This document shows positions 53,678 through 57,283 of a DNA stretch of 64,000 bases, one piece after another. The position numbers and the translations under genes were made by a program. Under the pieces are notes generated by a model. It ran no database searches. It saw only the letters and a list, made by a program, of their open reading frames with translations, and was not told where the DNA came from. Position 1 is the stretch's first letter, and every line of letters starts with the position of its first letter. The stretch covers positions 1,657,106 through 1,721,105 of the forward strand of contig NZ_BPFI01000001.1 in assembly GCF_019972135.1 (NCBI RefSeq). The letters are read 5' to 3'. Origin of the DNA: Sulfurovum sp. TSL1 (lineage in GTDB: Bacteria; Campylobacterota; Campylobacteria; Campylobacterales; Sulfurovaceae).

Positions 53678-53938
53678 TTATTCGTCCCATTTATGTTTAT
53701 GTGGGGTTCGTTCCAAATACTCCTGATCATAGTCGTCATCCTCATAGTATTCGTCATCTGCATCCGCCCATCCAAAGAATTCATCCGTAAAGACCTTGTC
53801 ATATCCCATCTCAACAAGCATCTCGTCAAGAATCGCATAATCCGTGCCTTTCGTTCTACAATAATTCATAAGCGTTTGCATATCCTCTTTTCCAACCCCG
53901 TTTACTTTCAAAGCAAACTCAATCTCTTGGAAGGTCAT
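53678..53938 (-). CDS. Small acidic protein near nrdB, unknown
   Basis: 86 aa, ATG with GGGTAGG before it. The first half is helical (EIEFALKVNGVGKEDMQTLM); the second half is extremely acidic (WADADDEYYEDDDYDQEYLE) and ends in HKHKWDE. It lies between nrdA and nrdB, on their strand. No family was recognised. Confidence 0.65.
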   Translation of the reverse strand: MTFQEIEFALKVNGVGKEDMQTLMNYCRTKGTDYAILDEMLVEMGYDKVFTDEFFGWADADDEYYEDDDYDQEYLERTPHKHKWDE

Positions 53939-54134
53939 CCTACCCTCTCCTCTTTTTAAATCACTGCTATACAGACAGCTTCTCTGGAAGTTTTATATTT
54001 CTATCCATATTGGAATTATATGTCAAAATCTGAGATTTTAAGCTAAAAAAAATCTTAATTTATCTAAAAAAATAATGATGTGATTTTTATCGAATATGAT
54101 CCTGTTTGTCTCATAGTTAAAAGCGTATCTAAAA

Positions 54135-54312
54135 AGGTAACTTTTCATGGGAAATATATTTGAAAAAAGGAGATGCACCTATCAAGGGAAACTCAAGATG
54201 CATACAAAGTGAAAAGTTACCTAGAAAGCCTGAAGTGTCAAAAAGGGATAAGAGTCCTTCATGGCTTTCATATGGCAAGTATAACTTTATTGTATGAAGT
54301 AAGTGTGAAGTC
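54135..54312 (+). ncRNA. Structured RNA candidate, copy A
   Basis: P1: AGGTAACTTTTC (54135-54146) pairs perfectly with GAAAAGTTACCT (54211-54222). It encloses a smaller stem ATGCA/TGCAT (54173-54177/54199-54203). P2: GAAAGCC-TGAAG (54224-54235) pairs with CTTCA-T-GGCTTTC (54257-54269), with a single bulged T. A conserved tail ends GTGAAGTC. TATGAT at 54095-54100, about 35 nt before P1, is a possible -10 box. GGA-rich loops (AAGGAG, AAGGGA) recur. The plus strand is favoured by these purine-rich loops and by the box. Confidence 0.55.
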
Positions 54313-54377
54313 TATCCGGCAAACATCATCACAGTATATAATCCTTCTTATGCTTGACAGCTTCTAATGTTGAAACA

Positions 54378-54554
54378 AGATAACTTTTGTATGTTTCGGA
54401 CTCTTGTAAAGGAGGGTATACACATCTCTGAGCATACCATATAAACTCAAAAGCTATCTAGAAAACCACGAGGCATATAAAAGGGAGGGAGGAGGAACCT
54501 CTGTGGTTTTCATAATGCTATTATATTCTTCTTGTGTGTAATGAATGTGAAATC
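54378..54554 (+). ncRNA. Structured RNA candidate, copy B
   Basis: P1: AGATAACTTTTG (54378-54389) pairs with CAAAAGCTATCT (54448-54459), with one A-C mismatch. Inner stem GGTAT/ATACC (54415-54419/54434-54438). P2: GAAAACCAC-GAGG (54461-54473) pairs with CCTC-T-GTGGTTTTC (54498-54511), with the bulged T at the same place as in copy A. The tail ends GTGAAATC. TATAAT at 54337-54342 is again about 36 nt before P1. Two P1 pairs and one P2 pair differ from copy A by paired changes (G-C to A-U, C-G to G-C). Confidence 0.55.
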
Positions 54555-54913: not shown

Positions 54914-57283
54914 TTACTGACAACCCACACACTCCATAGATCTATCTTCTACATCATTAGAAGATTCAGGAGACTGAGATCTTAGATAGTAGGTAGACTT
55001 CAATCCGAACTTCCAGGCATTCATATAGATCTCATTGAGGTACTTACCGCTTGCTTTATCCAGTGTGATAAAGATGTTCAGACTCTGTCCCTGGTCTAGC
55101 CATTTTTGTCTGATGGCACCTGCTTTGACAAGGAGGTTCTGATCGAGATCATAACTCGGTGTATAATACTGCCAAGTGTCTGCATTCAGATTCGGTGCAA
55201 CAACCGGGATAAGCCCTGAAAGGTTCTCTTCAAACCACTTTCTTTTATAGACCGGTTCGATCGCTTGTGTTGTACCTGTCAAAATAGAGATAGAACTTGT
55301 CGGTGCAATAGCCATAAGGTAACCGTTTCTCATACCGTCTGTTTTGACTTTTTCTTTCAGTTCCTGCCAGTCATGGGTATATCCGAAAAGACCGCCTCTG
55401 TCAACCAGTTTACATGCATTCTCATTGGCTTTATCGATAGGGAAAACACCTTTAGACCAGTCTGAACCTTCAAAGTTCGGATAACATCCTTTCTCCAAGG
55501 CCAGATTGCTTGATGACTCAATGGCATAATAAGAGAAGGACTCCATGACTTCATCTATTTTAGTAAAGTGCTCATGGCTTCCCCACTCTACCTGTGCCTC
55601 TGCAAGCATCTGAGCTTCACCCATGACACCAAGACCAATGGATCTTGACTTTTCATTGGTCTTCTTTACTTTTGCCAAAGGATAGAAGTTCAAGTCGATC
55701 ACATTGTCAAGCATACGGATCGCTGTAGGCACCACACGCTCCATATCTTCTTTGGTATTGACATTGGCAAGGTTGACAGAAGCAAGGTTACATACTGCGG
55801 TATCACCGTCCGTTTTTTCTTTGTCAACGATCCATATCTGTTTACCGTTAATGCTGTCAAGTGCTGTCACTTTTTTAGCCGGCTTGGTTGTCCCGTTGTC
55901 TACAGTGAGCATCTCATTTTCATCATAGGCTTCAGTCGTTCCATCCTCGAATGTGAAACGTGTTTTATACGTGTTCGGTGCAGTGTTCTGGAAAATCTCT
56001 GTACAGAGGTTTGTACTTCTGATGACACCTGCATGCTTGTTAGGGTTTGCTTTGTTTGCTGTATCTTTGAATGTAAGGAACGGGTTTCCTGTTTCAAAGT
56101 AAGAACGAAGCATCTCCTTCCAAAGATTTTTCGCAGAAACTCTTTCTCTCGTGATCTTATCCTCTGAATTTTCAAGCTCTACATAACGCGCTTCAAACGC
56201 ATCACCATAGAGTGTTGTCAACTCTGTCACTTCAAATGGATCAAAGAGTGTCCACATCTCATCTGCTTCTACCCTTTTCATGAAAAGGTCATTGAGCCAG
56301 ATCGCAGGGAAAAGGTCATGTGCTCTACGACGCTCTTCTCCTGAGTTCTTTTTCAAATCAAGGAAGTCACGTATGTCAACATGCCACGGTTCAATGTAAA
56401 CAGCGATGGCCCCTTTACGTGTACCAAGTTGGTCTACGGCTATAGCAACATCATTGGCTATTTTGAGGAAAGGCACGATACCCCCTGCAGCATGCTTGTG
56501 TCCATCAATGTATGAACCCATACCACGGACCAGTGACCAGTCCCAACCGATCCCCCCACCGAATTTGGAAAGCAATGCCATCTCTTTGTACCCGTCAAAG
56601 ATACCTTCAATATTATCCGGTGTCGATCCGATGTAACATGAGCTCAGCTGGTGTCTCGGTGTTCTGGCATTGGATAGGGTCGGTGTTGCTGCCATCACTT
56701 CAAATTTACTCAAAATGTCATAAAACTTTTTCGCCCATGTCTGACAGTCAAACTCGTTTTGTGCCAGGAACATAGCCACACCCATAAAAAGTTGCTGGGG
56801 CAATTCAATAGGAGTCCCGTTACGGTCTTTTAAAAGATATCTGTCATAGAGCGTACGAATACCCAGGTAGTTGAACTGCAGATCACGCTCAGGCTTAATG
56901 TAATCATTAAGATCATCCAGGTCATATTTGTCTTTCAGCCCGAGAACGATACGTCCCTCTTTCTCTCCACGTTCAAAATGTTCACGCAGATGGTTATAGC
57001 CTGTAAACCCCGTGACTTTATGGTAGAGATCGTAAAGAAAAAGTCTAGCTGCAACAAACGTCCAGTCAGGTCTGTCAATGTCTATCTTGTCAACCGCTGT
57101 TTTAATCAGTGTCTGTTGTATCTCCTGAGAAGAGATCATGTCACGAAATTGCAGCTTGGCATCTACCTCGAGTTCACTTTGACTTACCCGCACAAGCCCC
57201 TCTACTGCTGCGGCTGTATACTTCTGAATTTTTCCTACATCTAAGGTTTCTACTCTACCATTTCGTTTAACGACTCTGATCAT
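54914..57283 (-). CDS. nrdA: Class Ia ribonucleotide reductase, alpha subunit
   Basis: 789 aa from ATG 57283 (MIRVVKRNGRVETLDVGKIQ), preceded by AGGGAAAAG and matching the N-terminus known in Helicobacter NrdA; a TTG 23 codons upstream (57352) is possible. The ATP-cone, GGGIGWDWSLVRGMGSYID with the active-site region, NLCTEIFQNTAP (Cys, Glu) and the C-terminal redox pair in ECVGCQ are present. It reduces ribonucleoside diphosphates, with NrdB giving the radical. No frameshift, intein or insertion. Confidence 0.97.
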   Translation of the reverse strand: MIRVVKRNGRVETLDVGKIQKYTAAAVEGLVRVSQSELEVDAKLQFRDMISSQEIQQTLIKTAVDKIDIDRPDWTFVAARLFLYDLYHKVTGFTGYNHLREHFERGEKEGRIVLGLKDKYDLDDLNDYIKPERDLQFNYLGIRTLYDRYLLKDRNGTPIELPQQLFMGVAMFLAQNEFDCQTWAKKFYDILSKFEVMAATPTLSNARTPRHQLSSCYIGSTPDNIEGIFDGYKEMALLSKFGGGIGWDWSLVRGMGSYIDGHKHAAGGIVPFLKIANDVAIAVDQLGTRKGAIAVYIEPWHVDIRDFLDLKKNSGEERRRAHDLFPAIWLNDLFMKRVEADEMWTLFDPFEVTELTTLYGDAFEARYVELENSEDKITRERVSAKNLWKEMLRSYFETGNPFLTFKDTANKANPNKHAGVIRSTNLCTEIFQNTAPNTYKTRFTFEDGTTEAYDENEMLTVDNGTTKPAKKVTALDSINGKQIWIVDKEKTDGDTAVCNLASVNLANVNTKEDMERVVPTAIRMLDNVIDLNFYPLAKVKKTNEKSRSIGLGVMGEAQMLAEAQVEWGSHEHFTKIDEVMESFSYYAIESSSNLALEKGCYPNFEGSDWSKGVFPIDKANENACKLVDRGGLFGYTHDWQELKEKVKTDGMRNGYLMAIAPTSSISILTGTTQAIEPVYKRKWFEENLSGLIPVVAPNLNADTWQYYTPSYDLDQNLLVKAGAIRQKWLDQGQSLNIFITLDKASGKYLNEIYMNAWKFGLKSTYYLRSQSPESSNDVEDRSMECVGCQ

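Follow-up and report, generated by a model that had tools for sequence, protein, structure and literature searches.

The analysed window, a 64,000-nt stretch of the Sulfurovum sp. TSL1 genome, carried the genes nrdA and nrdB on the minus strand and, in the interval between them, two related units at an offset of 243 bp. These units, copies A and B, had been recognized from the sequence alone and were present as described. The features of the locus, in the order in which they lie on the minus strand, were as follows.

57352–54914, minus strand: nrdA, with a likely ATG start at 57283 (Pfam Ribonuc_red_lgC/lgN and ATP-cone), flanking the interval upstream.
54520–54551, minus strand: promoter of copy B, TTCACA-TTCAT-TACACA-N9-TATAAT (conserved profile; 0 mismatches to the promoter pattern).
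54513–54376, minus strand: small RNA copy B, predicted +1 at 54513, ~138 nt (full-length match to the covariance models R1 and R2, 100.6 and 90.1 bits).
54376–54511, minus strand: hairpins I and II of copy B in the same order as in copy A, with UUCCUCCUCCCUCCCUUUUAUA in the hairpin I loop (folds, alignment and loop motif count).
54278–54309, minus strand: promoter of copy A, TTCACA-CTTAC-TTCATA-N9-TATACT (conserved ungapped profile and pattern match).
54271–54133, minus strand: small RNA copy A, predicted +1 at 54271, ~139 nt (full-length match to R1 and R2, 119.9 and 109.4 bits).
54224–54269, minus strand: hairpin I (P2) of copy A, GAAAGCC (54263–54269) paired with GGCTTTC (54224–54230), with UAUCCCUUUUU in the loop (covariation of helix 1).
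54135–54222, minus strand: hairpin II (P1) of copy A, AGGTAACTTTTCA (54210–54222) paired with TGAAAAGTTACCT (54135–54147), around an inner hairpin and the single strand CUCCUUUUUUCAAAUAU (covariation of helix 2).
53678–53938, minus strand: 86-aa open reading frame 3′ of copy A, start region AAAAAGAGGAGAGGGUAGGAUG (no Pfam match; candidate target of the copy B loop).
53450–52431, minus strand: nrdB (Pfam Ribonuc_red_sm), flanking the interval downstream.

Each unit was composed of a promoter, the sequence AUGAAAG from +1, hairpin I with a C/U-rich loop, and hairpin II, which contained an inner hairpin together with a CUCCUUUUAAAUUAU-like single strand. Both stems described in the sequence-only reading, P1 with its inner hairpin and P2 with its one-base bulge, were seen in the sequence and in the folds of both copies. 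The family consensus was GAAAGCC/GGCUUUC for the first hairpin, followed by AGGUAACUUUUCA/UGAAAAGUUACC for the second, and the length of the RNA was ~110–165 nt. Only single folds predicted the inner hairpin of P1, whose columns aligned poorly. The description of a tandem pair was appropriate for the two units of the locus but fell short for the genome, in which the model search found four copies. The other two copies were located near a CDGSH gene, identified by Pfam, and near a phosphatase/kinase-like gene, named by reading its sequence.

The folding energies of single copies were unremarkable by themselves on either strand, with z scores of −1.24 (A, plus), −0.86 (B, plus), and −2.70 (A, minus), and the case for an RNA rests on comparative evidence. 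In an alignment of 19 copies (A2), which was made by sequence alone and was not fitted to structure, 95.7% of the cells in the two stems were paired and 12 pairs showed compensatory changes; none of 500 shuffles reached the observed values. An alignment of 68 sequences, taken from covariance model matches and fitted to structure, gave 95.3% paired stem cells and compensatory changes in 17 of 20 pairs, again with 0/500 shuffles reaching these values, and far exceeded slid controls. Helix 1 (hairpin I) contributed 96.1% paired cells with compensatory change in 6/7 pairs, and helix 2 (hairpin II) 94.9% with change in 11/13 pairs. Copies A and B were among the training sequences of model R1. Since the DNA of copy A was in this training set, its independent support comes from the orthologues and the promoter. 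At the end of the RNA no strong U-tract terminator was found, and the T content was 48–59% in the five bases after P1, compared with ~33% beyond.

The promoter region lay outside the covariance model, and its conservation was observed without gaps. The profile of the copies was TTCACA at −38 to −33, TWCACA at −27 to −22, TATAMT at −12 to −7, and A at +1. With one mismatch allowed, the −10 box stood at exactly this position in 66/72 copies, including 48/53 copies outside the training set, compared with 1.4% of other upstream positions, and five further late model matches also had the promoter. The two hexamers formed 11-bp direct repeats (TTCACA-N5-TWCACA), which replaced the −35 element upstream of the −10 box. 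The PHO box consists likewise of two 11-nt direct repeats (PMC4415409). Because this is the layout of OmpR/PhoB-family promoters, the sRNAs are probably controlled by a response regulator of this type and thus by a two-component system, the class of activator being judged from the repeats.

The 32-bp promoter pattern occurred at 72 sites in this genome with at most three mismatches, compared with 20 for a reversed control. The sites often preceded genes for periplasmic, outer-membrane, cytochrome, or copper-oxidase-like proteins, as judged by eye from the sequences, and their hexamers varied among TTCACA, TACACA, TGCACA, and TTAACA. Because the repeats before envelope and metal genes differed somewhat in their hexamers, several regulators may be at work. 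Clustered promoters with 11-bp TGCACA/TACACA repeats were also observed at G000:C2 ~151000–180000 and at C1 358000–365000 and 401000–409000, before genes for efflux, multicopper-oxidase-like, and small periplasmic proteins. These clusters probably represent a metal-response regulon.

The RNA was read from the minus strand, opposite to the first proposal. Paired stems by themselves are compatible with both strands, and TATRAT boxes do exist on the plus strand of this genome. However, the wobble pairs of the larger alignment, counted on the minus strand, comprised 80 G·U cells in 16 columns and only 10 A·C cells in 5 columns, whereas an RNA of the plus strand would give the opposite asymmetry. 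The first 19 sequences gave 20 G·U and 1 A·C. The P1 pair regarded as lost in copy B was A·C on the plus strand and is a G·U pair on the minus strand. The TATRAT box assigned ~35 nt upstream of the plus-strand unit was found at 7/73 loci, compared with 2/73 in the control, and was absent from most orthologues of A and B; the plus-strand starts placed near 54107 and 54349 were unsupported, the predicted +1 positions being 54271 and 54513. The similar GTGAARTC tail of the two units is the reverse complement of the upstream repeat GAYTTCAC of the promoter. With the wobble asymmetry and the conserved minus-strand promoter both against it, a structured RNA on the plus strand is extremely improbable. 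The loops resembling an anti-Shine-Dalgarno sequence had been missed because the plus strand shows purine-rich GGAG tracts in their place. A check of G·U/A·C asymmetry and promoter can therefore overturn a strand call based on paired stems alone.

The sequence-only reading depended on homologous units with the same stems in related genomes, and these were found. Of 100 relatives searched at the DNA level, 17 genomes gave matches, most of them from the same genus, and model R1 gave full-length matches with covarying stems in 62 of the 175 genomes of the taxonomic family. The matches of model R2 over 399 genomes of the order were limited to three genera of the same family, Sulfurovum included. 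Near-identical RNA hairpins in a named genome collection were all from Sulfurovum, one record being Sulfurovum sp. AR. When 32 genomes, almost none of them with an earlier match, were searched more sensitively, two credible copies were added (L144 and L145); two late weak matches (L146 and L147, E 0.006–0.01) lacked the promoter and were judged false. Many genomes of the family, nearly complete Sulfurovum ones among them, had no copy detectable by the model searches. In the window, no Rfam model matched at the gathering threshold, and at E ≤ 5 only chance matches to unrelated families appeared among 4227 families, so a known Rfam family was dropped. The claim of a duplicated regulatory small RNA class outside the known families was thus borne out by the covariation, the Rfam result, and the lack of coding. 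Sulfurovum and its relatives, for which literature searches surfaced no described sRNA, gain a well-supported RNA family that Rfam lacks.

The interval between nrdA and nrdB was the commonest and most conserved site of the RNA and is the ancestral site of the family. In many genomes of genus g1, ppnP was located just upstream of the RNA and a 173-aa gene faced it from downstream. Many Sulfurovum genomes have this nucleoside phosphorylase gene, ppnP, between nrdA and the RNA; the present one does not. The convergent 173-aa gene between the RNA and nrdB (e.g., L028:1667–2188, minus strand) was conserved with 33–88% identity and had no Pfam match. An operator or recombination site was at first suspected in TACAGATTATTGTTGTTCTTATCTGTAG, which precedes many copies, but this was rejected because the ppnP coding sequence ends there (...ITDYCCSYL*). 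Two copies were structurally altered. In L065 (G012:C7, 2068–2217, minus strand), the copy was decayed, the end of ppnP replacing hairpin I and the promoter, so that hairpin II alone remained beside ppnP. In L048 (G172:C52, 1501–1699, minus strand), an inverted repeat of the approximate form GGGCACCTCTAACAATAGGTG...CACCTATTGTTAGAGGTGCCC was inserted within hairpin II and looks like a small mobile hairpin.

The loops varied in length and sequence and carried the motif in several forms (CUCC, UCCC, CCUCCC, CCUCCCUCCC, and CUCCUUUUAAAU). These C/U-rich loops resembled the 3′ anti-Shine-Dalgarno end of 16S rRNA. CUCC or UCCC was present in the loops of 67/68 sequences and in both loops of 60/68, so that the unpaired anti-Shine-Dalgarno motif of base-pairing sRNAs of this kind was conserved here above dinucleotide shuffles. 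CCUCC occurred in 38/68 hairpin I loops, compared with 15 in dinucleotide shuffles, and in 25/68 hairpin II loops; CUCCU occurred in 41/68 hairpin II sequences, compared with 9.3 in the shuffles.

Predicted pairing of the loops with start regions in the window was slightly better than with mid-gene regions. Pairing with gene starts was not always above that of shuffled loops (copy B hairpin I, −9.41 compared with −9.46 for shuffled loops). The duplex of the copy B loop with the start of the 86-aa gene was predicted at −27.7 kcal/mol, compared with a mean of −10.2 (sd 3.6) for the 55 other start regions of the window, and ranged from −26.8 to −32.0 kcal/mol across five related genomes. The ribosome-binding site of this gene is unusually purine-rich, and the adjacent gene therefore stays a candidate target only, although the best local one. 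The 86-aa open reading frame has a very acidic C-terminal half, and five related genomes keep it in their nrdA–nrdB interval.

Our main reading, to which we give a probability of about 0.62, is that copies A and B belong, as paralogues, to an undescribed group of non-coding sRNAs in the Sulfurovum family; they would be independent minus-strand transcripts with promoters of their own and would repress translation through their loops. Each copy would be transcribed from its own sigma70-type promoter, in which direct repeats replace the −35 box, probably under the control of a two-component regulator of the OmpR/PhoB type. The RNA folds into two hairpins, each presenting a C/U-rich, anti-Shine-Dalgarno-like loop. 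Hfq was not found in this genome, and without it the loops would most likely block the translation of selected mRNAs by pairing with their purine-rich ribosome-binding sites. Strand, structure, loop motif, promoter layout, and distribution of the family are computational results; expression, the class of activator, pairing with targets, and repression are inferred. The precedents for such loops, the failure to find Hfq and CsrA in the genome, and the outlying duplex with the 86-aa gene together make anti-Shine-Dalgarno repression the most likely mechanism. The RNA would offer a handle on sRNA action in bacteria without Hfq. A wider proposal, which we regard as tentative and rather doubtful, is that of a family-wide, Hfq-free riboregulator whose two loops mimic the 16S rRNA tail and whose up to four paralogues have diverged to separate targets; its activator would be a response regulator that senses the envelope or metals and has periplasmic and outer-membrane genes under its control as well.

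Repression by the loops was ranked, with moderate confidence, above a role in cis and above protein sequestration. The RNA could be a 5′ untranslated leader, a riboswitch or attenuator, controlling nrdB or the next gene, as its conserved position in the nrdA–nrdB interval would suggest. In genus g32 it starts ~44–65 nt after nrdA and ends 68–86 nt before nrdB, in some Sulfurovum genomes it lies 90–113 nt upstream of nrdB, and in genus g41 it lies 18–62 nt upstream of an AAA-ATPase gene. However, the nearest detected downstream gene of 21 copies was convergent on the opposite strand, sometimes within ~30 nt, and the copies beside the CDGSH and phosphatase/kinase genes adjoin unrelated genes. 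The varied and often convergent downstream genes point to an autonomous transcript. Furthermore, the RNA lacked the conserved unpaired core typical of aptamers, its loops keeping only their C/U composition. A leader of nrdB as the sole explanation was rejected, because the RNA was not consistently in the 5′ untranslated region of one same-strand gene, and a cis-acting leader in general is unlikely.

An equally unlikely reading is that the C/U-rich loops titrate an RNA-binding protein, such as a cold-shock protein, a KH-domain protein, or Rho, in the manner of CsrB for CsrA. At least two repeated C/U motifs displayed in loops and several copies per genome would fit such a function. Its CsrA version, a CsrB/RsmZ-type sponge first suggested by the GGA motifs of the plus strand, was ruled out: CsrA (PF02599) was not found in this genome, the GGA motifs fall on the strand that is not transcribed, and the transcribed loops read CUCC. 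A leaderless mini-gene starting with AUGAAAGCC... at +1 and encoding a peptide of ~16 residues is most improbable. An ATG was present at the predicted +1 in 48/74 copies, but 22/74 had neither ATG nor GTG there, four started with TAG, the lengths and frames differed, and the stem changes were compensatory. Coding on the minus strand at +1 was therefore rejected, in agreement with the sequence-only reading that coding does not explain the similarity of the copies.

The preferred reading, repression by anti-Shine-Dalgarno-like loops, has precedents in other bacteria. The alpha-r14/cuckoo sRNAs have several hairpins, each with a C-rich anti-Shine-Dalgarno loop, and divergent stem sequences; one of them, NfeR1 of Sinorhizobium meliloti, blocks the ntrB ribosome-binding site (PMC10746234; PMC3927594). 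The hairpins described here similarly show a C-rich anti-Shine-Dalgarno motif in the loop. However, the alpha-r14/cuckoo sRNAs belong to the Alphaproteobacteria and have three or four hairpins, all showing the invariant loop motif CCUCCUCCC, whereas in the present RNAs the main hairpins number two, stem sequences are conserved, the C/U loops vary, and the promoter has TTCACA repeats. With two hairpins and a varying motif in place of three or four with identical CCUCCUCCC, membership in that family was rejected, and C/U-loop anti-Shine-Dalgarno sRNAs apparently arose here independently of the alphaproteobacterial ones.

The name of the CcsR sRNAs derives from their C-rich loop motif. CcsR1–4 of Rhodobacter sphaeroides are tandem paralogous sRNAs (PMC10253847), as are copies A and B. 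CcsR1–4 share a transcript with the DUF1127 gene ccaF1, which starts at an RpoH promoter and is processed by RNase E, whereas each copy here has its own predicted promoter, and no DUF1127 gene was noticed beside the copies. Within the Campylobacterota, RepG of Helicobacter pylori pairs through a C/U-rich loop with a G-rich leader (PMC8295292), and CJnc230 of Campylobacter jejuni has a putative anti-Shine-Dalgarno stretch (PMC11187230). Although the present RNAs share with RepG a C/U-rich loop and with CJnc230 an anti-Shine-Dalgarno-like stretch, RepG is set apart by its description (a C/U-rich terminator loop, homologues reported in Helicobacter species, and a G-repeat target), and no sign of homology with it was seen. 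CJnc230 is a 98-nt, RpoN-dependent RNA with a 12-nt single strand between two stem-loops and is linked to the upstream flgE. The family is real and uncatalogued; it would act like the known anti-Shine-Dalgarno sRNAs and lies outside the definition of any named family tested.
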